DNA of 64,000 nt from Artocarpus heterophyllus (taxonomy: Eukaryota; Streptophyta; Magnoliopsida; Rosales; Moraceae): NCBI GenBank assembly GCA_025403435.1, contig CM046354.1, positions 21,981,467-22,045,466 on the forward strand. The letters run 5' to 3'. Below, piece by piece: positions 3,951-31,282 of this stretch. The notes beneath the pieces are model-generated. The model ran no database searches and was not told where the DNA came from. It saw nothing but the letters and a program-made list of their open reading frames with translations. Every line of letters begins with the position of its first letter. Position 1 is the stretch's first letter. The translations under genes were made by a program, and so were the position numbers.

Positions 3951-5061
3951 TTATTCCCAATGTTGGGCATGAACTTTAACTTTTTTGTTCACTTCTAAAT
4001 CCTTCGAACTGCTCAAAATACACAGATCGAATATTTGCTTGACAACTCCTCCGCTCTCTTCCTCCTCAGAAAAAGGAAACCCAATGAACTCTGCAATCCG
4101 TTTCACATGAAAAATATTTTCTTCCTTCATGTCTTCATACCTCAAAAACAACAGTTTTTCCTTCTTCTCCAAGCACTCTGTCAATAACCCAAAACATGGT
4201 GCCAAAAAGACCTGAACCCCTCCTCTCCTTAGCAAAACTTGTCCACATATTCCTCCATGTTTTCCCACTGCAAGCGGGTACGATCTGGATGATCCTGTGT
4301 CCCAAAATGCCAAGAGGAGATGATAATGTCAACAGGGTTTCGACAAATGTAGATGATTCGACATTTTGAGCTCTTGACAGATTCAGGCAAGGATGAGTGG
4401 GGAATGTGAGTGGAGAATAGCCGTGGGAATGTAATGCTACTTAGATCCGGAACTTTGATAGCATTACTACAGGGAAAAAAATACTTTTATTCAATGTAAT
4501 TATGTATGTAAATCTACAAGTCTCAATGACAAGCTAAAAGTACTTTATCAGAAAATTCTTTGTAATGTTGCATGAGAATAAAAATTAACAAAGAGATATT
4601 CTCATTTTCCTAAAAACAAAGGAAAGACGGGTATTAATATTGTGAGTAAAAATTAGGACGTCACCAAACCCCTTTTTTTGTACTGCATTAGCAAAGAGCG
4701 TGAACTTGATGAAAAGTACGAGTTGATGCGGATTGAAAGTGAGCAAAGGAGTGTTGGAAGGCATGCAACGAGTGAGGTTGACGATGGAATACACAAGAGC
4801 TTTCAGCCAGGTGGTGCCACATTTGGGCTTTGATACTAGAATGACGTCTTGGTCAAGAGCTGGGGAATGTTTTTGGAAGGAGATGATGTTGGGAACAATT
4901 CTGGAAGGACACCAAAAACCTTGGTAGAAGGAGAGACACGAAGAACCCAAAAATCCTTTTGTTTTGGGTAGTAATTGGGAAAGAACAACTTCTAGCTGAT
5001 TAGACTAATCATCCTTATTGCTCCTTGCTTCTACTAAAAACTGAATAGGATTCATCATCAT
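3951..5061 (-). pseudogene. Cytosolic (flavonoid/steroid-type) sulfotransferase pseudogene
   Basis: Plant cytosolic sulfotransferases move sulfate from PAPS onto small hydroxylated metabolites. Reading leftwards, three in-line ATG codons (5061-5053) start MMMNPIQFLVEARSNKDD, then a stop. At 4950-4770 come YQGFWCPSRI and the PAPS-binding loop DVILVSKPKCGTTWLKAL. At about 4440-4315 come PRLFSTHIPHSSLPES and the 3'-phosphate motif CRIIYICRNPVDI. At 4180-3951 come LRYEDMKEE, KRIAEFIGFPFS and EVNKK. All family blocks are present in order, but they are spread over three frames with stops and an unrelated-looking AT-rich stretch at about 4450-4600. The Tat-type element is inserted exactly at the start codons, so the promoter and most of the leader now lie 10.8 kb away at about 15895. 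Confidence 0.88.
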
Positions 5062-5064
5062 GAT

Positions 5065-5697
5065 TGTTGATGCTTACCGTTGTTCGGCGTCGGATCAACA
5101 CCCACGTGTAGTTGTGCACGGTCTGACCTCTTATTAGTCTTGCCTCTGGCCGGGAGTGTGTACCTGCAAGAGGAGGGATGCTTCGGAGAATAATGGGGTA
5201 GGTCAATAGACAAGGGCTCTCCGATGCTCAAGGCAGGTATTGCTCGGCAGAGGTCGGCAACTGGTTAGGTGTGTAGAAGTTGTCTCTCTCTAGAATGTCA
5301 TAAATGCATCCTATTTATAGGCTACCACTTGGTTCGGGTGTGAGATGGGTTTTACCCATCACCGGGCGTCACATCAAGGTGTGTCAAGTAGTAGGTAACA
5401 AGTGTTGCGCCCATCGCCCAGTGGATTGGACTCTATCGGACGGCAATGTATCTGCCTTGTGTTGGCCTATAATGGCGAGTAGTAGCCTATTTATGAGAAA
5501 TGTTAGCCCGACCCGAGCTACCGTGTGTCCCGAGGCAGCAGCCTTCTTGGGGCGTAGCCTTGGATGCCTGAGAGGCACCTCGGGAAGAAGTATAACGCAT
5601 CGGGGGCCGACAGTAAGCCTCCAGGGGGTCTGCCGAGCTTATTCACCGACCACCAAAGTTAATGTCCTCGGTGGTAGCGCTGAGCTTAGCCTCAACA
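5065..5697 (-). mobile_element. 3' LTR of the Tat-type element (left copy)
   Basis: Starts TGTTGATGC and ends CTCAACA. It is near-identical to 15255-15889. On the minus strand TATAAATA lies at plus positions 5312-5319. Confidence 0.95.
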
Positions 5698-5712
5698 TAA
5701 GCCCCCCAGTTC
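5698..5712 (-). other. Polypurine tract of the Tat-type element
   Basis: On the minus strand AACTGGGGGGCTTA abuts the TGTTGAGG start of the 3' LTR. This is the expected place for the plus-strand primer. Confidence 0.7.
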
Positions 5713-5922
5713 ACCTGGTCGGTGTTCAGCCGGGTAGACTATGCCGAGTGGGTGAGGTCGGCTCAAAGAAGGAAAGCCAAATGACACTTAGAAGCGGGGT
5801 GAGGTGAAAAGACGCGCGGGTCAACGAGGGACGCGTGTCGCACCACGGCCGTCTGCGCGCCTATCAGGCGTATTAATTGCGCCTCCTGGGTTTTCGCGCT
5901 CGAGTTTCCCGCTCAAAATGGC

Positions 5923-5930
5923 TATAAATA
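5923..5930 (+). promoter_or_regulatory. TATA box for the antisense gene
   Basis: TATAAATA in the context GGCTATAAATAGGGCC lies on the plus strand, about 145 bp before the antisense ATG. It is outside the LTR and points away from gag-pol, so it fits a promoter dedicated to the antisense transcript (inference). Confidence 0.6.
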
Positions 5931-6074
5931 GGGCCACCTCCTTCGTAATTTGCACTTCATTTTCAGAAATCTTACGACCGAAGAGTTTTAGCTGTCGAGC
6001 TAAAGTAATATAGCCGAGGATCGTATCTCCCGAGCTACCGAGAACCCGAGCAGGTAAATTTCCCCTAAGTGAAA

Positions 6075-8508
6075 ATGAGTGATTTATCTGATTCCCAGAA
6101 CGTAGAGGTTTCCTGGTCAGACAGTAGCGCGGAGAGTAGTAGCTCTTCTTCTACCCAATCTGACATCGAAGTGGCGTCCCCAAGACGGGACGGGGCCGGC
6201 CGACTGGAGCAAATGCTAAGGGTCGACTCCCAGACTGTACCCGAACAGGAGTTTTTAAACATGCTGGACGGGCGTAGGATCATTAGGCCGTCCAGGGAGC
6301 AAGACCCTTACGTAGGGGCGGCTACAGCGGGCTCATCCCGAGTTCTACCAAAGGAGATGACCGAGCTTCAGGCCCGCGAGGATGCTCCGAGCACTTCTGG
6401 CAGGAATGCTGGGGCCCCCACCCAAGTCGCGGGGGTGATCACAGTCGACGTCTCCAATGAGGAGCATGCAGCCGAAGAGGCAGAGGCAGAGTAGCCGGAG
6501 ATGGAACAGGAGGTCCAGGTCACCCGCGTCCGGGGTGTGACGGCATATCGGGTAAGCCGACCTGGGCAAACTTCGACGGCGGGCTATACGAGCGCCATCA
6601 CAGAGTCGCGGTTAGAGAGCCTACGCATCAAGTATGGCATCCCGGCCGATGTGATTCTTGCTGTCCCCGGCGAGGAATACTCACCCCTAGCCGCACCAGA
6701 GGGATTTATCACGCTCTATGTCGAGTTCTTCAAGGCTGGGCTGCGTTTGCCACTGCACCGCTTTCTCCGCTGGGCACTCAACGACTTCAACGTGTGCCCA
6801 GCTCAATTAAAACCGAACAGCTATAGGTCGCTGATCGGGATGTACATCTTATGGAAGTACCACCGGAGTACCGAGATGCCGCTGGAGGCCTTCAAATAAG
6901 TATTCAAGATGAAGAAGCTTCCTCGGCAGTCCGGCTGGTACTACTTCACCAGCTTCTGAAAGGATTTTATCCTGGGCAACCCCGACTCGGACAAGTTATG
7001 GAAGTACGAGTGGTTCTACGCCAGGGGAAACTTTCTAGCCCGAGCCGGTGAAGCTGTCCCCGAGGATCAGCAAGTGCCGAGGTCGTTCGAGCAAGGGCAC
7101 GTTTGGACCAAGCGTCCTTGGGCACCGAGCTGCGTAATTAGGGCGGTAGACGAGCTGTTCGAGAAGCCGGAACCGTCCAGACAACAGTCCTTCCTTCTGA
7201 GGAAGGACACTTTATCTAGTTACGGCTGGTTTGGGGAGTCCAGCAGCCTTCCCCGAGCTGTCCGTCCTACATGGGGGGCCAGGCATGTTACAGTTGCTCA
7301 TCCGAGTGCTGCGGACGTTCCAGGGCCAAGCACTTCCCGGTTCGGGTGGCCGACGAGGGAGCCTTCTACGTCCAATTCTGAGGACTCGTCCAGTGGCTCC
7401 TTCGATGCGGGGCCACCTGTAGCCGACGAGGACCTCGAGGACGTGATTAGGTTCCTATACCCGTCTCGCCCACTCTGGATCGGAGGTCAGCCCGGGAACT
7501 TATTTTTAATCACCCTTTCTTATCCCGACCTCACTTTGACTTTGCTCTTCCTTGTGCAGAAATGATGGCACCGACCTCCCGCGCTGATAGGCGTGCCTAG
7601 ATGGCAAGTTTGAGGAAGTAGAAGGGCAAGGCCATCGACACCGGGAGAAAGCGCAAGCGGACGTCGAGACCCGAGCTTCCAACGCGTACCGGGCAGACCT
7701 TCACTTCAGTCCATGTCCCGCCACCCCTGCCGCAGCTGACCAGGGCCTCGCCGAAGGTCACCCCAGCAGACAAGGCAGCCAGAGGCACGTCCGGGGACTT
7801 GTAGAGAAGGCGTCCGGACTACTGTGGCATGGTTCTTGAGCGCCTCAGAGACGCGGTTCCGCAGGATGATTTCTTCATGAACATCCGGGGAGAGGACTTC
7901 CAGAGTCTCTGCAACACGGCCCTCCGAGCCACTGCCTCTGTAAGTATCTGAGCCAATCGATAGTTCTCCTTTTAACATATTGCCGAGGACTGACGCCTTG
8001 CTTTTTGCAGGCGAGCGCCATTCTACACATGGTGCACTCCATCAGGATGAAGGAGATTCACAAAGAAAAGGAGATGCACATGAAGACCCTCTTGAAGAAG
8101 ATGGACTCCGACAAGAAGCTCAATGAGAAAAACATTGAGCTAGACCAAGCCAAGGAGTACCTTTCACGAGCCCAGGAGGAAGCCCGGAAGGCTAAGGTCG
8201 AGGCCGAGGAGACATCGAGGCGGCTCAAGGAGGCGGAGGATAGAGCCGCACGGCTTGAGGGGCAGCTCGCCACCCTGCAAGCGGCACACCAGTATTTTGT
8301 GGCCGGGCTCCCCGATCGCCTAGCCAGTGCGGTCGAGGAATTTAAAACATCCCCGGAGTACGCCAACCTCTACTATGACGGCATGACAAACCTCCGTGAC
8401 CACCTTATAGAGAAGCATCCCGAGGCAGCGGGATTCGACTGGTCGGTTATCGTTGAACCCGACCAAGGTGATGCCGAGCAACAACGGGGTGAACTTGTAG
8501 AGCGTTGA
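6075..8508 (+). pseudogene. Antisense gene of the Tat-type element (Transposase_28-like domain plus coiled coil), three exons, decayed
   Basis: Plus-strand gene facing gag-pol, between integrase and the 3' LTR. Model: exon A 6075-7485, intron 7486-7559, exon B 7560-7939, intron 7940-8010, exon C 8011-8508. Both introns are GT-AG and keep the frame. The N-terminus (MSDLSDSQNVEVSW) is acidic and serine-rich. The part encoded by 6600-7050 (AVPGEEYSPLAAPEG, FKAGLRLPLHRFLRWAL, GWYYF) looks like Pfam Transposase_28, 'putative gypsy type transposon', a domain of unknown role. Exon B is basic, then reads RLRDAVPQDDFF. Exon C is a long charged coiled coil (about residues 15-90 of its 165). In-frame stops fall at 6492, 6897, 6957, 7598, 7619 and 7802; exon C is open. 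The ancestral product probably had about 760 residues. Its function is unknown; expression or silencing control of the element is speculation. Confidence 0.8.
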
Positions 8509-8635
8509 GAGGGGCGGAGACGAGGATGCGGCTGGGGACGAGACCCAGGCCGATTGAACTTGTATTATTTTTTTTCTTTTTGTTCTTTTGTATTCGGGCT
8601 CGGGAGGTGCCCGGTTTCCTTGTACCTCCCTGATA

Positions 8636-8641
8636 AATAAA
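8636..8641 (+). terminator. Poly(A) signal of the antisense gene
   Basis: AATAAA about 130 bp after the antisense stop, preceded by T-rich and TTGTA-type sequence as in plant 3' ends. Confidence 0.55.
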
Positions 8642-9782
8642 GATTTCTCGTTTTGCCCTCGTTGTTTTCTTACGTGTAGTTCTGTTTTATTTTACATCTC
8701 ACGTAATTTTCAAAGTGCAAGTGTCCTTGAGTTAACAATCTAAGCCCTAGGTGCACCTTGGTGCGGCACATTCTTCAGACATCTGGTCACAGTCGGGGAG
8801 GATCTCAGGTTGGGAACCAGCTATCTCGACGGCCATAAAGTTGGTTCGAGTTTGCCTTGCTTCGCTCGATTTATCCAAGCATGTAAGTTTCAATCTCGGC
8901 TCGGCGTCGAGTTGTCCGAGCAGAGGTGAATGGCACCTCTGTTCTCAGTTAATCCGAGTAGTTATCCTTCTCTGCTTGGTTGATTACTCCAAGCAGGTTT
9001 AGGTTGGTCTTGGTTAATCCAAGTACTTCTGTTCTCGGTCACTCCGAGTAGCTATCCTTATCTGCTCAGTTATCCAAGCAGGTTTAGGTTTCTGATCTCG
9101 GTTGGGCAGAATATAGACGACGTATAACTACCCTTACTCTGTTGCCCCCTCTAGACTTGTTTAAGCTTTTAAAGAAACTTTACAAGTGTAGGAGTTGTCG
9201 GACATAGCACTGTACCTAAGCAACTTATCGGGTCGTCTGTACGGCGACAGACCTGGGGTCGGTGTACCGACCAGCCCCCCGGCCTAGTTAATGAGGATGA
9301 CTCTCCCATGACGGGAGTTACTGTCTTGTCTGTCGGGCTGGAGTGATGGCATTTTGGATCTACATTTCCTTTTTGACACATTACTTAGGTGGAAAGGTGC
9401 AAGAAAGCTGTATTCCATTAATGTGATATGTACATGAATTTTTCCAGTCTTGTTCGGCAGGTCTAGTTACAAAAGAATTATGGCCAGAAGTCAAAAAGGT
9501 GTCTCTGGCTCAATTTTAACAATAGAATCTTTTCAAGAGCTCGGCATTCCATGGATGTCCGAGCTGATTCCCTTCCATGTCGGTCAATCTGTACGTGCCC
9601 GGTCGTACGATATCTTCGACTCTAAAAGGACCTTCCTACTTTGGACTAAATGACCCGAGGTCGGACTGTTGAACCGTGACCTTCTTCAATACCAAGTCAC
9701 CAGCTTTAAAGCTTCTAGGTTGAACCCTTTTGTTGTAATACCGAGCTACCACCTGGTTCTGGGATGCGTTACGAATCGATAC
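8642..9782. other. Spacer of the Tat-type element with short direct repeats
   Basis: Non-coding. Two related units of about 65 bp lie at about 8938-9006 and 9028-9092 (CTGTTCTC..TCCGAGTAG..CCAAGCAGGTTTAGG), with extra half-units (TCCAAGTAC, TCCGAGCAG) between 8880 and 9030. I see no gene. The left end is near the antisense poly(A) site; the right end is the tail of pol. Confidence 0.6.
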
Positions 9783-10600
9783 TCAGTTTCTTTTTTCTTC
9801 AAGTAGGTCGAGCTCGACGAACATGAGCTCCGCGTTCAAAGTCTCCTCGTATCGCTCAACCCTTAAGCTCGGTAATCCTACTTCGGCTGGAATGACAGCC
9901 TCTGCCCTGTAGACCAGGGAGAACGGTGTTTCGCCAGTCGCTGTTCGAGTAGTTTTCTGGTATGCCCAGAGCACTTAGGGTAGTTTGTCAATCCACGCAC
10001 CCTTAAGCCCCTCGATTTTTTTCTTTAGGTTATCTTTGATTGTCTTGTTCACGGCCTTAACCTGGCCGTTATTCTGTGGATAGCTCAGGGAGGAGAAAAC
10101 CTTCTTAATGCTAAGCCTCTTGCATAGATGACGTAGACCCGAGGAGTCAAACTGTTTGGCATTGTCAGTCACAATAGTGTGCGGGATTCCGAACCAACAA
10201 ACGATGTTCTTCCACACAAAGTTGGTACACTTGGCTTCGGTCATATTGGTGTAGGGTTCAACTTCGATCCACTTCATCAGATAATCGATGGCGACGATAC
10301 AGTATCTGAATTACGAACGGGCCGGCGGGAAAGGTCCGATCAAGTCGATGGCCCACTTCACGAATGGCCACGCCGAGGTCACTGGATTGAGCGGCTCGGC
10401 ATGTGAGCCGAGCATTCTAGCAAATTGCTGGCACTTGAGGCATTTTCGCGCAAAGTTCCCACAGTCTTGTTGCATGGTGGGCCAATAGTATCCCTGCCAG
10501 AGGCACTTTTGGGCCAAGGAGCGTCCCCCGGAATGATTGCCACATAGGCCTTCGTGGACCTCGCTCATTAGATACTCAGCCTCCTTGGGGTCCAAGCATC
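9783..10600 (-). pseudogene. Integrase of the Tat-type element
   Basis: Reading leftwards: the HHCC zinc-binding part (HEGLCGNHSG..CLKCQQFA, about 10560-10430), then the core with WAIDLIGPF (first catalytic Asp) and IVTDNAKQFD (second Asp). The third acidic residue should follow in the NGQV-x-AVNK motif, but here that position is Lys (NNGQVKAVNK, about 10065). In-frame stops fall at about 10311 (after PFPPARS) and 9975. It shares its frame with the archaeal RNase H stretch upstream. A strand-transfer-competent enzyme is not expected. Confidence 0.85.
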
Positions 10601-10829
10601 TTAAGCATGGCATAGTGTAGCCTCGCCGGTATAATTTTTCACCGATCATCGAATACCGGGCCGAGCTGTTACGTACCCAACATGCTTCTTCTCGGTTGTC
10701 GGGTAACTCGGCTGTGGTCCGGTATCGGATGATCGGGTCCATCCAGGTACTTCTCGGCTCCTCGTCCAGGCTCATGACCTCCTTAACTATGCTTGGTTCA
10801 GACAGTCTTTCGATGGAAACCGACGTCAA

Positions 10830-11230
10830 GTCACTTCCACCCAATCCAGAAGCTAGTTGGGCAAGGACGTCGGCCTCTGCGTTTTTCAATCGGGGGATCT
10901 GTTTAAAAGAATAGGACTTAAATTGTCCAAGCAGTTGTTTTGCTTCCTTTAAATATGTCGCCATCGAGTCTGCCCGGGCCTGAAATCCTCCGGTGACCTG
11001 CTGCACCACTAGCATTGAGTCACTATAGATGTTGAGGCGATTGACGCTGAGATCTCGGGCTATTCGTAGTCCGGCCAGCAGAGCTTCGTACTCCGCCTCG
11101 TTGTTAGAGGCCTTGAAGTCGAACCGGAGGACAAAAATGAGCTTGTACCCGTCCGGGCTTGTTAAAATTAGCCCGACCCCCGATCCGTCGATGCAGGTAG
11201 AGCCGTCGACGTGTAGTTTCCAGTCCGGCT
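10830..11230 (-). pseudogene. Archaeal-type RNase H domain of the Tat-type element
   Basis: Begins at WKLHVDGST, with acidic residues in HVDGS, NNEAEYEAL, YSDSMLV and NAEADVLAQLAS, as expected for an RNase H that removes the RNA template. This extra domain after the normal RNase H is a Tat-lineage mark. Most of it is open, but it is out of frame with RT, so a frameshift lies between about 11770 and 11230. Confidence 0.8.
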
Positions 11231-11309
11231 CCGGGGAAAGGCCTTGTTCACTGCAGCCAGCTGTATCAGGCCCTTAAACGGGTGACTTCTCGACTTGTGG
11301 AGTTGCCTT

Positions 11310-12550
11310 ACTGGCTTCTGTAAATTCGGCAACGAAATCCGCCAGGACTTGAGCTTTTATTGCCGTTCTTGGTACAAAATGCACATCATATTGGCCTAGC
11401 TCAACCGACCATTTGGCCATTCGGCCCGATATCTCCGGGCTCTGCAAAACTTGCCAGAGAGGGAACTTGGTCAGGACCTTGATGGTATGGCCTTGGTAAT
11501 ATAGTCGCAGCTTCCGGACCGATGTTATTAAGGCGTAGGCTAGCTTCTCAAGTGGTGGGTACTGCTCCTCGGCACCCTAGAATGCGTGGCTGGTATAATA
11601 AACTGGTCTCTGGATCTTGTCTTCGTCCCGAACCAAGACCGAGCTAACAGCTTTCTCTAACACCGCTAAATAGGCGGTTAAAACCTCGTCGGGCAAAGGT
11701 TTGGACAGGAGCGGGGAGTAGCCAGGTAAGTTTTTAAATTTTGAAAAACTTCCTCACACTCCCTGCTCTACTCAAACCTCCCCTTAAGCGCCTTGAAAAA
11801 AGGCTGGCACTTGTCGGTAGCCCGGGAGACAAACCTTGACAGGACAGCCACCATGCTAGTGAGCCGTTGTACGTCCTTCACCGTCCGAGGAGAATGCATG
11901 TCGATAATTGCTTGATCTTTCACTGGGTTGACTTCGATTCCTCGTTGATTGACCAAAAATCTGAAGAATTTGCTCGAGCTGACGCCAAATGCGCATTTTG
12001 TCGGGTTGAGTTTCATCCCATATTCCCGGAGAATGTCGAAGCTAGCTCGGATGTCGGCCATGTGGTCCTTCGCTTGGACAGATTTTACCAACATGTCATC
12101 CACGTAGACCTCCATAGTTTTCCCGATCAACTGAGCAAACATCTTGTTGACGAGGTGTTGGTAAGTAGCCCCGGCGTTCTTTAGGCCAAACGGCATCACA
12201 ACGTAACAGTACAAGCCCTGGTCGGTAACGAAGGAGGTTTTGACTTGGTCTTCCTCGGCCATCCTTATCTGATTGTACCCGGAGTATGCATCCATAAAAC
12301 TTAGAAGCTCGTGGCCGGCTGTGGCATCGACGAGCTGGTCTATCCGAGGAAGTGGGAAGCAATCCTTCGGGCAGGCCTTGTTGAGATCGGTGTAGTCAAT
12401 GCAGACCCGCCATTTGCCGTTCGCCTTCTTGACGAGGACAACATTCGCTAACCATTCCGGGTATTTGACCTCTCTGATGAATCCAGCATTCAGGAGTTTC
12501 TGGACTTCATCGTTGATTGCAGCATATCTCTCCGGGTTAAAGGCCCTTCA
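11310..12550 (-). pseudogene. Reverse transcriptase and first RNase H of the Tat-type element
   Basis: From a TGA near 12549 the frame is open to 11768. It includes YPEWLANVVLVKKANGKWR, DYTDLNKACPKD, FMDAYSGYNQI and the catalytic YVDDMLVKS (about 12105), so the RT core itself is intact. The tail holds KCAFGVSSSKF. RNase H follows at about 11740-11310 (VYYTSHAF, then a TAG at 11577-11579). RT shares its frame with protease and gag. Confidence 0.85.
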
Positions 12551-12697
12551 TTTCTGTATCACCGGCTTGTGGCCAGGTTAGACGTTGAGCCGATGACTGA
12601 TAATGCTCGGATCAATGCCGGGCATGTCCTCATGGGACCATGCGAAAACGTCACGATATTCGGAAAGAAAGCACTCCAGGTCGGCCCGGATCTCAGG

Positions 12698-13492
12698 TCA
12701 CAACTCTGATCCGAGTTGGACTGTGCGTTCAGGCCTTTTAGGGTCCAAGGAGAGCGGCACTAAGTCCTCGACCGGAGTGGCCCTTACCTCTTCCTCAGGC
12801 AACCTGGGGTCCAAGTCCGCCAGCATCTTTGGTGCCGAGTCGGTTGGGAGATCGGTCTCGTCGACTGAATAGACGGTAAGGACGCCATGTTGTAGGGTTG
12901 AGGCTGCTCGGACAGCATTAGCGTAACAAGTCTGGGAGTCTGTCTGGGATGAGCGTATCACTCTAATGCCGTCGTCGGTCGGGAATTTCATGGCCAAATG
13001 ATACGTTGAAACAATGGCCTTCAAGCCGTTCAGCGTCGGCCGGCCAACGATGATATTGTACTGGGAAGGTTTGTCGACAACTAAAAAGTCGACTACCCGA
13101 GTGATCCTAGAGGCTCCTTCTCTGAAAGTCACCGGCAGACTAACCTTCCCGGTTGCCCGGACACATTCTCCTGTGAAGCCATAAAGCGGGGTCCGAACCG
13201 GGACTACTGGAGCGTTGCTTATCTTCAACCTGTCGAAGGCTTGTTTGAAGAGGATGTCTGCTGAACTGCCGTTGTCGATCAAGACATGCCGTACTACATT
13301 GTTGGCCATAGGCAGCTCGCATACCAGGGCATCATTATGGGGGTGCATCAATTGGTCAGTCCCCTCCTCGGTAAATGTGATCGGAGTGTCTCCTTGGCGA
13401 CAGATCTTGTTGATGTGCTCGGACATGTTTATTAATTCACCCCGCTCGACCCGCCGAGCTTCTCTGACGTAAGATCGCCGCCCACTCGACAT
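12698..13492 (-). pseudogene. Aspartic protease region of the Tat-type element
   Basis: Open for 264 codons and in frame with gag and RT. It has VLIDNGSSADIL, where DNGS replaces the more usual D[ST]G active-site spelling, and YNIIVGRPTLNGLKAI, the conserved second half of the retropepsin fold. It would cut the polyprotein. It ends at a stop (12698-12700) after LGSEL, in the linker before RT. Confidence 0.8.
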
Positions 13493-13663
13493 GTCCCCGG
13501 TAACAGGCCCGCCGAATATCGTGTGAACAATATTTGGGGGATCCGAGGTGTTCCCATTGTCGATCCTGGGTCGGTTCTGTACGTCTCGGCCCGACGAATT
13601 GTTCCTTCCAGAAGTGGCCCTTGGGGTTATAACCCGCTCTACGAATTCCCACAGCAGACCTTC

Positions 13664-15185
13664 TCAGACCAGTCTTTCTATCTGGTCCTTCAACTGGATG
13701 CATTCCCGAGTTGTATGCCCCACATCCTTATGGAATTCGTAAAACTTTGACTGATTCCGCTTCACCCTGCTCCATCGGAGCTTGGGCAGTGGTGTTAGCA
13801 AATTTTTGTCTCCAACCTGGGTGAGCACCTCATCGATGGTCGCCACCAATGGTGTATAGCTTTGAAACTTACTGGTTGGCCCATTTGGCTTCTCGGATTT
13901 CTCTTTCTTCTGCTTCTTGGCATGCTCAGGGTTGCCCTGTTTCGGCGCCTTCTCCTGCTTCTTATCCTTCTTTGTTTCGCTCGGGCCAGCCTCGTCCCGA
14001 TGGCTTTTCATGTATTCGGCAGTGTTTGCGTGTCTCTGGGCATACCCGAGCATTTGGGAGAACATGCTCGGCTGCTCAAAGGCCAAGGACCAGGTCAGCT
14101 TCTCGTCTTAGAGGCCCCCTACAAAAATGTGTTTGAGGGTCTCGTCTTCGACATGCCTGACCTCGAGAGCTGCCCGGGTAAACCGGTTAATGTAATCCCT
14201 GACGCTGCCGTCTCCCTGCTTAACGGCATACAGGCAAGTTATTTCTTTCCTCTGCGTTTTGGTTGTGGAGAATGCAGAGGAGAAGGCGTCGGCCAGATGC
14301 CTAAAAGAAGGAATTGACCCGGGTTCGAGTCGCCGAAACCACTGTCGGGCAGGGCCAGTTAAAGTGAGTGAGAAGGCTTTGCACATCGCCGCGTCACTGG
14401 CGTTCTGCAGCAGCATGTGTCCCCGAAAGAGTTCGACATGCTCATCGGCATCAGTGGTCCCATCGTAAGACTTGATCTGCGAGACCTTGAACTTTGGTGG
14501 CATGGGCGCCCACATTATGTTATCCAAAAAAGGTGGGTCCTGAGCTCCTGTCTCATCTAGACCGAATCTACAATTTTGAATCTCGTCAATTTGTCGCTGT
14601 AGTGCCCAGAACTGACGGCTATTGGTGTCTTCAGGCAGTTTGACCCGATAGGGTACTCCGCCCTCAGCACAGCCTCCAGCTCCGGCGTGGCAGTTTCTAT
14701 TTATTCCTTGAGACCCGAGCAGGTCAAATACCAAGACTCGGGAACCTTGTGGTGATGGGGCACGGGCCGCTTGGTGTCCCACACGGTGTTTCTGAACTAT
14801 TCTATTGTCGGCTGGAATTCCTCTGGTGGACCCTACAGACTGCTTGGATTGGTCTTCTTCCAGGTCGGCTGTACTTCGCTCAACCCGACCTCTGGCCTGG
14901 TCAACCTGGGCCAGGGGCAGGTAGAGCTGGTGCAGCTTGCCGCTGAGCTTGCTGCGCGAGCTGCTGCGTCAGGATCCGGACCGCGTCAGTAAGTTCTCGG
15001 ATCAGATTTTGGGCGGCTGGGGCCTCCACGGGCTCAGCCCTCGCCGTGCTTCCTTGCCCCCCAAAGCAGGATCTCGCGGTCCAAGGACAGCCCCTAGGTC
15101 GGCCTACGGCTGGTTGCCTATTTCTCGAATCGTCCGACCCTTCCTGTCGGGCTGTGTCATCTCTGGCGTTACCTCGGGTCGTCAT
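13664..15185 (-). pseudogene. gag of the Tat-type element
   Basis: The start MTTRGNARDD at 15185 begins about 70 bp inside the 5' LTR. A low-complexity Gln/Ala-rich stretch ends at 14901, then the frame changes. The part at 14782-14108 contains the retrotransposon gag core (LTLTGPARQWFRRLE, then RDYINRFTRAALEV). A stop at 14108 and one at 13664 split the rest, which is Lys/Glu-rich and ends in a degenerate zinc knuckle (EFHKDVGHTTREC, first Cys missing). Gag would form the particle. Confidence 0.85.
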
Positions 15186-15234
15186 CTCGGGAGTCAGAGA
15201 TAAAGTAGCTAAATTTGGGATGAAGGCGTAGGGG

Positions 15235-15251
15235 CCCTCCTTCTAGCGCCA
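15235..15251 (-). other. Primer-binding site of the Tat-type element
   Basis: Three bases inside the 5' LTR the minus strand reads TGGCGCTAGAAGGAGGG. It begins TGG, as needed to pair with a tRNA 3'-CCA. I did not identify the tRNA. Confidence 0.6.
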
Positions 15252-15254
15252 AAA

Positions 15255-15889
15255 TGTTGATGCTTACCGTTGTTCGGCGTCGGATCAACACCCACGTGCA
15301 GCTGTGCACTGGTCTGACCTCTTCTTAGTCTCGCCTCTGGCCGGGAGTGTGTACCTGCAAGAGGAGGGATGCTTCGAAGAATAATGGGGTTAGTCAATAG
15401 ACAAGGGCTCTCCGATGCTCAAGGCAGGTATTGCTCGGCAGAGGTCGGCAGCTGGTTAGGTGTGTAGAAGTTGTCTCTCTCTAGAATGTCATAAATGCAT
15501 CCTATTTATAGGCTACCACTTGGATCGGGTGTGAGATGGGTTTTACCCATCACCCGGGTGTCACATCAAGGTGTGTCAGGCAGTAGGTAACAAGTGTCGC
15601 GCCCATCGCCCAATGGATTGGACTCTATCGGACGGCAATGTATCTGCCTTGTGTTGGCCTATAATGGCGAGTAGTAGCCTATTTATGAGAAATGTTGGCC
15701 CGACCCGAGCTACCGTGCGTCTTGAGGTGGCAGCCTTCTTGGGGCGTAGCCTTGGATGCCTGAGAGGCACCTCGGGAAGAAGTATAACGCATCGGGGGCC
15801 GACAGTAAGCCTCCAGGGGGTCTGCCGAGCTTATTAGCCGACCACCAAAGTTAATGTCCTCGGTGGTGGCGCCGAGCTTACCCTCAACA
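15255..15889 (-). mobile_element. 5' LTR of the Tat-type element (right copy)
   Basis: Near-identical to 5065-5697, same TG..CA ends. The minus-strand TATA box TATAAATA at 15503-15510 would start gag-pol transcription leftwards. Confidence 0.95.
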
Positions 15890-15922
15890 ATGATCATTAA
15901 GGGCATTGATTATTGATGGAGC

Positions 15923-16337: not shown

Positions 16338-18060
16338 TTCTCCCACTTGGTCTGCATATTCCATCATTTAACACAGTAAGAAACAAATACATAAATTATA
16401 GTGATAGATCCTCTTAAAATGAGTAATATCTTCCATGTATTACAATATATTATGTTTCTTAATACTTTATGAATAAACCCTAGGTCTATTCTAAGTCCAA
16501 ACTTAATGATATTTCTCAAATGAATTAAAAAATATGTACACAAAATAAATATGAGAAAAATATCACAACTGAAATAGAGTTTTGTTTGTTCTAACATCAA
16601 AAATCACATAAAGGAATTAAGTCCCATTTAATCTACATGATCCTTGAATCTAAATGGTGGCATGCCTTTAGTCAAAGGATCCGCTATCATCAATTCAATG
16701 CTAACGTGTTCAATGACCACTATTTTCTTTAACACATTCCCTTGTGGCTAAATTCTTAACATCGATGTGCTTGCTTCGACTACCACTTTAATTGTTTTTA
16801 GCCATAAAAACTACTATGGATTGTCACAATATATCCTCAGTGAATTAGAAATTGAATCTACAATTCTAAGCCCATAAATAAAACTCTTCATCCTACACCA
16901 TTTAAGGTTACCTCAAAACAAGATATGAACTCAACCTCTATATTGGAAATAGCATATAGAGTCTGCTTTGTGCTTCTTCAAGATACAGATCCATCGGCAA
17001 AATTAAAAATGTACCCTGATGTTAATTTCTATGAATCAATACAACCAACGAAGTGTAAATCTAAGTAGCTAATTACCTTCAGAATTTCAATTCATCTATA
17101 CGTAGGCATGTAATTTTTGGTTCCCTAAAGATACCTCATCACTTTTTTTGCAGCTGTTTAGTGGTCCATACCTAAATTACTCTGATATCTTCTTAAAATT
17201 CCCACAGCAAATGTAATGTTAGGCCTTGCATAGACCTGAGGATACATTACGCTTCCAATGGCTAAAGTATATGGAATGTTTTTCATTTGTTCCCTTTCAA
17301 AATCACTTTTGGGGCACTGGTTCAAATTTAATTTTATCATCTTTCACAATGGGAGCTATACTTAATGAACAATCTTTCATCCGAAATTTTTTTAAAACTT
17401 TGTTGATATAGGTCTCTTGAAACAGACCTCAAATACCTCTAAATCTGTCTCCATGGATTTTTATGCCAATGACATAAGATGCATAACCATATCCTTTATA
17501 TAAAAGTTCTTAGAGAGAAATTTTTTACCTCATGTAGCAAAGCCTTATCATTGGTTACAAGTAAAATATTATCCACATAGAGAACAAGAAGATAAATTTT
17601 ATACCTGCTAACCTTTTGGTATATATGTAGATCCATAATATTCTCTACAAATCCGACAAAAGAGATAATATCATGAAATTTTAAATACCATTGATGGGAG
17701 GCTTGTTTCAATCCATATATGGATTTCTTAAGCTTACATACCAAATGCTCACCATCACTAAAGAAAAATTCTTATGGTTGTTTCATATAAACCTCTTTAT
17801 CTAGATCTCCAATAAGAAAAGCCATTTTCACATCCATTTGTTGCAATCCTAAGTAAAAATGTGTAACTCATGCCATAATGGTATGAAAAGAATCTTTCTT
17901 AGATATGGGAACAAAAGTCTCTTTATAGTCAATTCATTCTTTTTGAGTGAATCTTTTAGCGAAGAGTCTTGCTTTATATTTTTCAATGTTGTCCAACGAG
18001 TTTTTCTTTGTTTTAAAGACCCATTCACATGCTGCCTTGCCTTTTTGGGCTGTCACTTAA
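16338..18060 (-). pseudogene. Copia pol remnant, minus strand
   Basis: Heavily broken. Readable blocks in order on the minus strand are CEWVFKTKKNSLDNIEKYKARL (18050-17980), an RT middle with VCKLKKSIYGLKQASHQWY, the active site altered to YVDN (about 17570), YTLAIGSVMYPQVYARPNI (about 17270-17210) and the C-terminal DPLTKGMPPFRFKDHV (about 16680-16625). The element stops abruptly near 18060, so gag and integrase are missing. Its 5' LTR is not seen. Confidence 0.85.
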
Positions 18061-19058: not shown

Positions 19059-19921
19059 TGAGACTGTAAAAGTATACATTTTACAAGGCTTAAATCATTT
19101 ATTTATACTTTTATTTCTCATTAAATCCTCTAATTAATAGCATTTTGTATTAATAAGTAATTTTGTGTCTTAGTGTGTAAATGTGTCTAATAATATGTTT
19201 TTAGTGTGTTTTTATTTTTAATAATATTTTTGGTAATTTTTAGAATCGTTTTGGTATGTTAAATATAAGTTTAATTTGTAAATAATTAAAACCATAAAAA
19301 TAATATTATATAATTTTATTTTGAGTCATAAAATGTTTGTAAATAAATTTTAAGTTTGTAAATATATTCTATTATATTTCTAATGCCTCAAAAGCTCATA
19401 AAAATCCAAATTTTGAAAAAGAACAGGGCAGGTGCCACATTCCTAGCCATTCGATCTAGCTGCCACTTGCCGAGGACCGTCGGATCCATGCCACATGTCA
19501 AGCGTTGCTCTAGCCACCAGATAAGAGCTGCTAGTGGGTCCCGCATGTCAGCAGCTTTGCCAAATCCAATGCGGCTGTTTCCACACGCTTATTAATTTTT
19601 GAAATATAATATAACATATTTACAACTAAAAATTTATTTACAAACACGTTAAGGCTCAAACTAAAATCATACAATACTATATTTTTATGGTTTTAATTAT
19701 TTATAAATTAAACACATATTTAACATACCGAAACGACTCTAAAAATTACTAAAAATATTATTAAACATAAAAGCACACTAAAAATACATTTTTAAACATA
19801 TTTACACATTATGACACAAAAATACTTATTAATACAAAAATGCTATTAATTAGAGAATTTAACGAAAAATAATGTAAAATAATGATATTTAACCTTAAAA
19901 ATATGTATTTTCACAGTCTCA
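19059..19921. mobile_element. TIR element with long terminal inverted repeats (MULE-like?), about 863 bp
   Basis: The first bases TGAGACTGTAAAA are mirrored by TTTTCACAGTCTCA at the right end, and the inverted similarity continues for about 320 bp on each side (19059-19385 and 19596-19921). A GC-richer core of about 210 bp with no recognisable gene lies between. I found no clean target duplication. Related ends occur at 39566 and 60020. Long inverted repeats suggest a Mutator-like non-autonomous element (inference). Confidence 0.7.
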
Positions 19922-26451: not shown

Positions 26452-29400
26452 TGTCAACCACCATGGTTGAATCCACCGAAACCAGCCCTGCTATATGTGT
26501 CTTCAACCGAGAATCCTGCTGCGGTTTCAACAGGAGATTTACAGAACACACAGGTTGCTTACAGGCTGAATGGAAAAAAATACTTGAGGTGGTCACAGCT
26601 GGTCCGCACTTTTTTAAAGGGTAAAGGCAAACTTAGTCATTTGTTGGGCACGGGACCAAAGAAGGGGATCCTAAATCCAGTGCTTGGGATGAGCAAGATT
26701 CGATGGTGATGTCGTGGCTATGGAATTCGATGCTTCTGGAAATTAGTGATACTTGTATGTTTCTCGATACAACCAAGGAGATATGGGATGCCATAAAACA
26801 GACCTACTCTAAGGTTCATGATGCTGCACAAATCTACGAGATTAAGTCAAACATTTCAGCAATGAAACAAGGATCGTGATCGGTTTTGGATGACACTAGT
26901 TTTTTTGCAAGGTTTGTGCCAAGTGATGGATCATTATCAGTGCATTCAAATGAGTTGTAGTCAAGATGCAGCCATTCTCAAAAGGTTTGTCCAAAAAGAA
27001 TGCATATATGGTTTTCTTGTGGGTCTTAATGTTGAGCTTGATGCTATGAGAGTGCAAATCTTAGGAAAAGCGAATCCGCCTTCTTTGAATGAAACCATCT
27101 CCATAACTCGAGTAGAAGAAGGGAGAAGAGGAGTGATGCTTGAGACTCATGTTAGTGACAGTTTGGCCCTTGTGGCAAAATCTGTTGGTGCAAAAAATTT
27201 CAGCCCCACAAACACGTGGTAACCAAACAGATTTATTGAAAACAGCTAAAAATAGAAGGCAAACATCGGACACCCCTAGGCACTCTAACCGAGACTCTGT
27301 TTTGCACCTACGGCAGGAAACATCACCATACAAAGGATAAATGTTGGAAGCTTCACGGTAGGCCTCCAAGGAATCAAGGTGACCAGAATTTGGGAGAACG
27401 GAGACAAGCCCACACAGCTAGCAATGAAGGATGCAGCCCACTGAGCCCAATAATGGAGTTCAACAGGGAGGAACTTCAGAAGTTGAAGAAGTTTTGGGGC
27501 ACATTCAAAAAATCGGCTATAGGTACATGCTCTTTAGCCTTTTTAGGTAATTCATCCTCCTCTTGTGTTGCTAATTTTTTGGATAAAATTTCTCCAAATA
27601 TGTGGGTAATTCATTCGGGAGCTACATATCATATGACACACTCCTCTAAATTGTTTACTTCATACATACCTTGCCCTCGTCATAGAAAAATAACCTTGGC
27701 AGATGGATCCATCGCTGCGGTGGCAGGTAAAGGAAACATTTTTATAAAAAATTCACTCACTCTTAAAAATGACCTGCATGTTCCCAAACTTTGTGCAAAC
27801 CTGATATCAATCCAAAAACTCACTAAAGATTCAAATTGCAATGTGTGTTTTTCCCTTCTCATTGTATTTTTCATGAACAGGGCACGAGGAGGACGATTGA
27901 ACATGCTAGTGAAAGAGATGATCTTTACTACCTAGATGAACAAGCTGGAAGAACTAGAGTTGAGAATTCCTCTCCTACATCACTCTTTTCTGGGTCCGTT
28001 ATTTCCAATAAAGATAAGATTTGGCTTCTTCAACGTCGTTTAGGTCATCCATCATTTAAAGTTTTTAAAGTTATGTTTCCGTCTTTATTCAAAGGTTCCG
28101 TTCTTGAGAATTTTCATTGTAATGATTGTGAACTTGCTAAACACAAACGTGCTTCGTTTCAAATAAGTGATGCAAAAACTTCTATTCCTTTTACTCTTAT
28201 TCATAGTCACATTTTGGGGACCATCTACGGTTCCAAATATCTCTGGTGCAAGGTGGTTTGTGTCGTTTATTGGTGACTTTACTCTTGTAATGTGGATATA
28301 TCTCATAAAAACTAAGTCTGATGTTGGTACAATTTTTCCCAACTTCTACAACATGGTCAAAACACAATTTGATGGGAGTATTAAACGATTTCGTTCAAAT
28401 AATACGAAGGACTACTTCAATCAATTTCTCTCTCCTTTTTTCGAAAAATAGGGAATTATTCATGAGTCTTCTTGTGTCACTACACCTCAACAAAACGGGG
28501 TGGCCGAACGAAAGAACGGTCACCTCCTTGCTACCACAAGAGCTTTATTGTTCCATAAAAGGGTCTCTAAACAGTATTTGGGAGAAACAGTCCTAACCAA
28601 TATTCATCTTATAAATAGACTTCCTACAACGGTTCTTGATTTCAGAAGTCCAATGGAAATTCTTACAAAATTCTTTCCAAACTTTAATACCTCCAACAAT
28701 CTCACTCCTAGAATCCTTGGAAGCGTCGTCTTTGTCCATGCTCATTCTCAACATCAGGGAAAACTTGATCGACATGCTCAAGTGTGTCTTCATTGGGTAT
28801 TCCTCCACACAAAAAGGGTACAAGTGTTTTCATCCACCTACAAGAAAAGTCTTTGTTTCTGCTGATATTACCTTCGTTGATCAAAGTCGTACTTCCTTGA
28901 GGCCTACTTTCAGGGGGAGAAATTAAGTGAAGATAGAGAAAAAGACCTGTTTCTCCTTAAGTTTCCCGATCAATCCGTGTTTGTGCCTGTCCAATCTGTG
29001 CCTATTGAATCTGTTGTGCCTATCCAGTCTGTCGAGTCTCAATCTGATCCTGTTGAGGTCCCAACTAAATCCATGTCTGTTCACTCAACCCATGTCACAT
29101 GGAATGGTGCAGGAGAAAGGAAATCAAGATTCTACTCAACCACTGCGTACCTATTCAAGGAGGAAAGTGCCAATCTCTCGAGCTATGTAAATTCAATCCC
29201 CATCTTGTGCGCTAGTTCAAACATTTGAATTCACCTTACAAACATTTGAAAAAGACCTGTTTCTCCTTAAGTTTCCCAATCAATCCGTGTTTGTGCCTGT
29301 CCAATCTGTGCCTATTGAATCTGTTGTGCCTATCCAGTCTGTCGAGTCTCAATCTGATCCTGTTGAGGTCCCAACTAAATCCATGTCTGTTGACTCAACC

Positions 29401-31282
29401 CATGTCACGTGGAATGGTGCAGGAGAAAGGAAATCAAGATTCTACTCAACCATTGCGTACCTATTCAAGGAGGAAAGTGCCAATCTCTCGAGCTATGTAA
29501 ATTCAATCCCCATCTTGTGCGCTAGTTCAAACATTTGAATTCACCACCCCTGGAGCTGCCGAAGCCACCTTACAACCATCCAGTCCCATTGAACCAACCA
29601 ATGAACCCAAGAAACAAAATGATCGTGACCTGCCCATTGCCCTCAGAAAAGGAACTAGAACCGATACAAAACATCCCTTATACTTGTTCATGTCCTATAA
29701 AAATTTATCCCAAAATCATAAAGCCTTCCTTAACAGTGTCCATACCATTCCCATTCCGAGAAATCTATCCGAGGCATTAGGCAACAAGGAGTGGGAGAAA
29801 GTCATGAAGCTAGAGATGGAAGCGTTGGTGAAGAATAAGACATGGGAGCTGGTCAAGTTTCCTAAAGGGAAGAAATTGGTGGGATGCATATGGGTCTTCG
29901 TTGTGAAAAATAGGTCTGATGGTTCATTGGAGAGAAATAAGGCGACACTGGTGGCCAAAGGATATACACAAACCCATGGCATAGACTACCTTGAGACGTT
30001 CGCTCCTATTGCGCAAATGAATACAGTTCGGGTCCTATCATTAACAGCCAATTTCAAGTGGAATTTACAGCAGTTTGATGTGAAGAATGCCTTCCTTCGT
30101 GGGGATCTTTAAGAAGAGATTTATATGGAAGTTCCTCCTGGATTTGAATCTAAAGGAGGAATAGTGTGCAAGTTAAAGAAAGCTTTATACGGTTTAAAAC
30201 AATCTCCAAGGGCCTGGTTCGGGAGATTTGCTAGAGTGATGATTATCTTGGGTTACATACAGAGCCAGGGAGATCACACTCTGTTTGTGAGACACTCAAA
30301 GGCAAGGGGAGTAACGGCACTATTGGTGTATGTTAATGATATTATAGTGACTAGCAATGATACAGAAGTATGCAGAATTTGAAAAAAACTCTAGAGAAAG
30401 AATTTGATATCAAGGAGCTCAAGAAGTTAAAAGTACTTCCTAGGTATTGAAGTGGCTCATTCTAAACAAGGGATCCTCATATCACAACAAAAATGTGATT
30501 GACTTGTTGAAGGAAACTGGAAAACTGGGATGTAAACCGTTTGAGACACCTATTGAGATTAATCATGGCCTTTGTGAAGCTCCAAAAGACACTACGGTAG
30601 AGAAAGTTCTTATAAGAGATTCGTAGGGAAATTGATCTACTTGGCACATATGAGACCAAGCATCACTTTTGCAGCAAGTGTTGTTAGCAAGTTTATGCAC
30701 AATCCTAAAGAGATGCATCTCAAGGCCATATATTGAATTCTCCAGTATCTAAATGGCAACCCCGAAAGAGGAATTTTGTTCAAGAAAGGAGGAAGTATGA
30801 CCCTAGAGGCTTACACAGATGCAGGTTATGCTAGATCGCTTGTTGACAGAAGATCCACCTCAAGCTATTGTACCTTTTTATGAGGTGATCTTGTAACCTG
30901 GAGAAGCAAAAAGCAAAGTGTGGTAGCAAGATCAAGTGCAGAGTTAGAATTCAGGTCAATGGCACTAGGAATGTGTGATTTGTTAGGGTTGAAGATAATT
31001 ATGGATGATCTGAGAATAAAATGGGAAGGACCAATGAGATTGTACTGTGATAACAAGTCAGCAATAAGTATTGCTCACAATCCCGTGCAACATGATCAGA
31101 CAAAGCACATTGAAGTTGACAAGCACTTCAGAAAGGAGAAATTGGACATTGGATTAATTTGTACTCCTTTTATCTCAACCAAAGATCAATTGGAGGATGC
31201 TCTTACAAAAGGGCTGCCAAACACTGTTGTCCAAGATATAATCAAGAAGCTTGGAATGGACGATATCCATTCACCAGCTTGA
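26452..31282 (+). pseudogene. gag-pol remnant of the leader-intron copia element
   Basis: Domains are in copia order: gag (YRLNGKKYLRWSQLVRTFLK, about 26555; TTKEIWDAIKQTYSK, about 26770-26820), protease (MWVIHSGATYHMT, about 27600-27640; the usual DSGA reads HSGA), gag-pre-integrase (LLQRRLGHPSFKVF), integrase (28200-28560; the catalytic SDN position reads SNN), RT (29684-30380; the active site reads YVND) and RNase H (ARSSAELEF, 30925; YCDNKSAI, 31040). There are frameshifts and stops throughout, so several independently essential residues are gone. The last stop precedes the right LTR by 7 bp. Confidence 0.88.
28940..29545 (+). repeat. Tandem duplication, period 310 bp, between integrase and RT
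   Basis: From AAAGACCTGTTTCTCC (28941 and 29251) to ACATTTGAATTCACC (29221 and 29531) the two copies differ at only a few bases. The duplication lies in the linker before RT and adds about 100 codons. Confidence 0.95.

Follow-up and report, generated by a model that had tools for sequence, protein, structure and literature searches.

Does the antisense region of a Retand-type retrotransposon hold separate open reading frames (ORFs), or the exons of one spliced gene? Antisense Transposase_28 (TRP28) ORFs have been reported from almost every recently active cluster of Retand elements, but their product is still undefined. In the available text of Vicient (2025; PMC11963269), antisense TRP28 ORFs are recorded in 97% of Retand clusters, with 104 antisense ORFs overall and eleven Smc domains listed separately, and in that of Neumann (2019; PMC6317226) 23% of Retand elements are credited with TRP28, and the sole intron mentioned is in the polyprotein RNA of Ogre. 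Attention to spliced antisense transcripts was urged by Vicient and Casacuberta (2020; PMC7264820); the word intron is absent from the available text of that paper and from the main text of Vicient (2025). A 2025 review (PMC12786077), in the part available, describes plant LTR elements as generally intron-free, with Ogre and EVADE as notable exceptions, and the accessible part of a sunflower study deals with other additional ORFs. The window analyzed here comprises 64,000 nucleotides of Artocarpus heterophyllus (contig CM046354.1, positions 21,981,467 to 22,045,466), in which an initial annotation had placed a three-exon gene antisense to gag-pol inside a Tat-type element and had proposed that its ancestral protein was a spliced product.

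The gene was found to lie within a minus-strand Ty3/gypsy element of the Tat/Retand type spanning 5065-15889 of the window (Table 1), whose LTRs are flanked by a 5 bp target duplication, ATGAT (5060-5064 and 15890-15894). The Pfam domains of its gag-pol, which is split into several ORFs, follow the Ty3/gypsy order of gag, RT, RNase H, RVT_3 and integrase, and sequences resembling a primer-binding site and a purine tract adjoin the LTRs on their inner sides. The two LTRs are 95.7% identical by blastn (K2P distance 0.041), which at a rate of 1.3e-8 per site per year places the insertion at about 1.6 million years ago. A mark of the Tat lineage is an additional RNase H, of archaeal type, placed between RNase H and integrase, and in this element RVT_3 sits between RT_RNaseH and the integrase zinc domain, in agreement with the Tat assignment proposed earlier. 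From its domain order, RVT_3 and the region of approximately 4.3 kb that separates the last recognized integrase ORF from the 3' LTR and carries an antisense TRP28 ORF, the assignment can be narrowed to Retand-like, since such a region fits the range of 2,933-6,566 bp given for Retand in the available text of Vicient (2025; PMC11963269).

Several other features were observed around the element. Two minus-strand ORFs with sulfotransferase pieces (PF00685) at 3951-5004 end approximately 60 bp from its left LTR and represent a broken or intron-containing host gene adjoining the insertion. A Ty1/copia-type RVT_2 fragment (17496-17771, minus strand) lies downstream, and a plus-strand stretch at 311-1045 resembles the RNase H end of a further copia element, with no Pfam match. 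An inverted repeat at 19143-19839 resembles a MITE or another element with inverted repeats; its arms, 160 and 61 nt long and respectively 90% and 84% complementary, enclose approximately 270-380 nt. A 298 nt tandem duplication, 99% identical at a spacing of 310 nt, was found at 28938-29545.

Table 1. Features of the retrotransposon and of its antisense gene, in window coordinates.
Feature	Position	Strand	Basis
3' LTR	5065-5697	-	LTR-versus-LTR blastn; edges and target duplication
TATA box of antisense gene (putative), TATAAATA	5923-5930	+	Motif and position only
Exon 1: ATG at 6075, acidic Ser-rich N-terminus, TRP28 domain (~6717-6854)	6075-7485	+	PF04195; tblastn
Intron 1: 74 bp, phase 1, GT-AG	7486-7559	+	Sequence; junction common to relatives; T-rich
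Exon 2: linker with RKRKR basic cluster, nuclear-signal-like	7560-7939	+	Frame-specific profile score
Intron 2: 71 bp, phase 0, GTAAGT...GCAG	7940-8010	+	Sequence; matching acceptor in fig and kiwifruit
Exon 3: coiled coil, conserved C-terminal block, stop codon	8011-8508	+	tblastn; profile; helix in fig model
AATAAA poly(A) signal (putative)	8636-8641	+	Motif and position only
gag-pol: gag, RT, RNase H, second RNase H (RVT_3), integrase	9975-15242	-	ORFs and Pfam matches
5' LTR	15255-15889	-	LTR-versus-LTR blastn; edges and target duplication

The gene outline lies on the plus strand between integrase and the 3' LTR, and its coordinates, intron lengths, splice dinucleotides, restored frame and six stops, all part of the initial annotation, were verified in the sequence. 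The GT-AG ends of both introns restore a single frame, which gives 763 codons when the exons are joined and is interrupted ahead of its final stop at 6492, 6897 and 6957 in exon 1 and at 7598, 7619 and 7802 in exon 2. Because of these six internal stops the copy in the window is a dead gene, a pseudogene. The start codon is backed by the N-terminus of relatives, MSDLSDSEN in fig protein P0001 versus MSDLSDSQN in the window. The T content of intron 1 (0.378) and intron 2 (0.338) exceeds that of all exonic stretches of the respective length (2068 and 2077 overlapping stretches, none of them as T-rich). The proposed TATA box and AATAAA are likewise present as plus-strand motifs, and by motif and position mark a putative promoter and poly(A) signal; the former, 226 bp inward of the LTR edge, is the sole plus-strand copy of its sequence within the element, and AATAAA occurs on that strand of the element at two places, 8636 and 11597. 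The sense promoter boxes of the LTRs (5311-5320 and 15502-15511, minus strand) read CTATAAATAG, identical to the antisense promoter at 5922, and no similarity between sense LTR and antisense promoters was found beyond this box.

Each exon was then compared with relatives in its own frame. The Transposase_28-like domain named in the initial annotation (PF04195) was recovered from exon 1 at 27.7 bits versus a curated Pfam cut-off of 26.2, over profile positions 3-48 of 69; fig P0001 itself scores 25.2 bits, slightly under that cut-off. The joined translation, with X at stops, retrieved 26 proteins (nine fig, one ENA and sixteen kiwifruit), a profile search 117 proteins, mostly from fig (Ficus carica), and a third search started from kiwifruit (Actinidia) 359 matches, of which the best 120 were listed. 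All 26 proteins matched exon 1 in frame by tblastn (best E 3.6e-64, with fig P0001), and four of the 26 matched exon 3 in frame with the low-complexity filter off (best E 1.8e-9). A profile of 133 relatives gave the end of exon 3, past the coiled coil, a score of 19.1 bits; the highest of 1802 reported shuffles reached 5.7. None of the 26 proteins matched exon 2 by tblastn. Against a profile that combined exon-2 pieces from fig (26) and kiwifruit (30), its predicted frame scored 11.8 bits, a value reached by one of 2000 shuffles, and its other two frames 0.1 and -7.2 bits; the predicted frame scored 9.0 bits with a fig-only profile (3 of 1999 shuffles as high) and 1.8 bits, without significance, with a kiwifruit-only one (149 of 1976). 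Each exon is thus recognizable in its own predicted frame, and all three are homologous at the sequence level to those of the relatives. Three Actinidia rufa proteins named hexosaminidase (P0145), RING/FYVE/PHD (P0166) and kinase (P0222) also match a TRP28-type profile; these are probably annotation run-ons and conceivably fusions.

Intron 1 was examined in the protein sequences of 117 non-kiwifruit relatives from the joined-translation and profile searches, 45 of which were left out of the count for want of a readable exon-1 end. With a phase-1 G|GT donor and a next exon opening with A and a purine, the donor codon should encode E if the intron is spliced and G if it is not, and the relatives match this pattern. 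Joining at the window's intron-1 junction was found in 51 of the 72 readable relatives, with E in 50 and K in one; the 21 others have G in 19 cases, V in one and N in one. These counts are of sequences and not of independent events, because many of the fig sequences are related element copies of one assembly. The 21 unjoined relatives were sorted by reading their sequences: ten end within 18 residues past the donor (P0072, P0073, P0074, P0078, P0081, P0083, P0092, P0096, P0098 and P0111), four emerge in a wrong frame (P0007, P0104, P0116 and P0120), three show joins of other kinds (P0045, P0095 and P0123), and only four keep the intron and remain in frame with exon 2 (P0028, P0030, P0044 and P0108). 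P0007, an ORF from an ENA contig, reads through intron 1 into the wrong frame of exon 2. The initial annotation would have been contradicted by intact relatives reading straight through; among these protein sequences such in-frame reading is confined to the last four, which mean that an open frame does not need splicing in every copy. The joined relatives are mostly gene models, and several of the short unjoined ORFs from ENA/LGN contigs, which carry no gene name, are probably independent of splice prediction. Read solely through the encoded residues, the splice dinucleotides appear to be conserved among the relatives.

The case for a shared position is less firm for intron 2, where the sequence is too diverged for residue-exact placing, than for intron 1. 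In the window, GTAAGT...TTTTTGCAG stands at the matching point, immediately ahead of the coiled coil. The fig acceptor usually precedes (A/T/G)(L/V)C, and P0075 keeps a stretch fitting the intron, which opens with VS after KLIE, as GTAAGT reads. In fig P0002 and P0004 the usual acceptor is paired with a more upstream donor, and the join lies slightly downstream of the usual point in P0005, P0035, P0037, P0052 and P0066. The kiwifruit relatives carry both junctions at points matching the window. Of 121 listed kiwifruit proteins, 81 have the exon-2 start (A/T)MSA(R/G), which follows 16 different preceding residue groups (RSDA in 53), and 93 have the exon-3 start motif, mostly after GQ. Kiwifruit P0019 retains an intron just ahead of the exon-2 start, and isoforms X1 and X2 of A. 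eriantha (P0011 and P0013) differ by a segment upstream of it. Junctions at matching points were thus found in fig, in ENA/LGN contigs and in Actinidia, and support the proposal that the ancestral protein was made from a spliced message.

Judged from sequence, it is very probable that the region is a three-exon accessory gene, antisense within a Retand-like element, that was made as a spliced product and has decayed in this copy. A first alternative concerns its origin and is compatible with this explanation: a host or DNA-transposon gene, already spliced, may have been captured and inserted antisense in a Retand ancestor, its introns being kept because splicing cannot act on them in the sense RNA. 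The logic of intron reporters (PMC12786077, in the part available) implies that introns antisense to an element survive copying through sense RNA, and PF04195 is described as a transposon-type domain; however, none of the proteins listed was recognized as clearly outside such elements, and the available text of Vicient (2025; PMC11963269) reports no similarity of TRP28 beyond transposable elements. We consider capture rather unlikely. An improbable second alternative holds that the introns are real but not fixed, so that retained or alternative forms occur and the gene's main product is a short one, from exon 1, with TRP28 alone. The ten relatives that stop shortly past the donor would give such a product of approximately 430-500 residues, the four in-frame read-through relatives keep an open frame, the two A. 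eriantha isoforms differ by a segment, and several different upstream sites occur among the fig and kiwifruit models. A TRP28-only product, however, does not require the in-frame conservation of exons 2 and 3.

It is more doubtful still that the working part is the antisense transcript rather than a protein, pairing with genomic RNA and feeding or tuning RNA silencing. This role has been proposed for such transcripts (PMC7264820, in the part available), and the window copy is untranslatable with promoter and poly(A) motifs still present, but a silencing RNA needs no conservation of one protein frame per exon, with junctions, as seen across distant relatives. That unrelated degenerate ORFs merely happen to have GT and AG flanks is hardly credible: GT and AG are common, T-rich stretches arise by chance and this copy has six stops, but the homology lies in the predicted frames, the junctions are common to relatives and the donor codon switches from E to G as predicted.

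For the spliced gene, the joined conceptual protein is approximately 760-870 residues long (window, fig P0001 and P0002). The first 140 residues of the window protein contain 26 acidic, 12 basic and 29 Ser/Thr residues. In the AlphaFold model of fig P0001, a confident region at approximately 181-390 contains TRP28 (block means mostly 76-93, one 58), and is separated by low-confidence stretches from a long helix at 656-804, as expected of a coiled-coil C-terminus; the model of a TRP28-only protein (P0099) was weaker, with a mean of 64. No solved fold matched the predicted structures, the TRP28 model included, so they give no structural support for DNA binding. The combination of acidic N-terminus, TRP28, basic linker and coiled coil suggests a dimeric nuclear protein, and GENE23 of Grande is reported to be nuclear. 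That the protein serves as a DNA- or chromatin-associated regulator of the element is a possible role, which we put forward tentatively.

For intact relatives, we infer that transcription by Pol II would begin inside the element, at a TATA box belonging to the gene itself, and proceed towards pol, and that host splicing would take out the two short T-rich introns. The joined message would encode one protein with an acidic Ser-rich N-terminus, TRP28, a basic nuclear-type linker, a coiled coil and a conserved tail, whose dimeric form may act on the element in transcription, anti-silencing or targeting. The splice sites are opposite in strand to the genomic RNA, which would retain the introns, so that retrotransposition would transmit both and the full protein would be obtainable only from a separate, host-spliced antisense message. 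By established logic, antisense splice sites are unread in genomic RNA and the introns should therefore outlast retrotransposition; a copy made from the antisense message would lack them, and their persistence in distant relatives points to transmission of the gene in the sense RNA and to its expression from a different one. On balance, we lean towards the broader reading that the TRP28 ORFs and the Smc-like coiled-coil ORFs of Retand represent the first and third exons of a single ancestral antisense gene with three exons, that both introns predate the split of fig and kiwifruit, and that the antisense introns act as a lock, by which the full regulator comes only from a separate nuclear, host-spliced message.

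If this is true, expression and testing should be directed at the joined protein, and ORF-based surveys have cut the product into pieces. It would also mean that a retrotransposon uses host splicing to separate an accessory protein from its genomic RNA, and would add to the short list of intron-using plant LTR elements. In the literature covered, which is without some key older work, no report was found of TRP28 and coiled-coil ORFs as exons of one gene; within that literature, the antisense TRP28 ORFs of Retand are known and their joining with the coiled-coil ORFs into one spliced gene is new.

The region shares with the Retand ORFs of Vicient (PMC11963269, in the available text) an antisense PF04195 ORF between pol and the 3' LTR, with fitting layout and sizes, but TRP28, Smc-like and other ORFs are kept separate there, whereas here they are read as exons of one gene. 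Gene23 of maize Grande (Gomez-Orte 2013, as described in the available text of PMC7264820) is likewise an antisense gene of the 3' internal region with its own promoter and a nuclear protein, a likeness of description. The antisense genes of HTLV (PMC11963269, in the part available) offer a likeness in working, as antisense accessory genes near the 3' end of a retroelement, for which no sequence relation is claimed. Ogre, also of the Tat lineage, provides a spliced intron in a related retrotransposon lineage; according to the available text of PMC6317226, however, that intron lies in the sense polyprotein RNA, in contrast to the two introns of an antisense gene described here.
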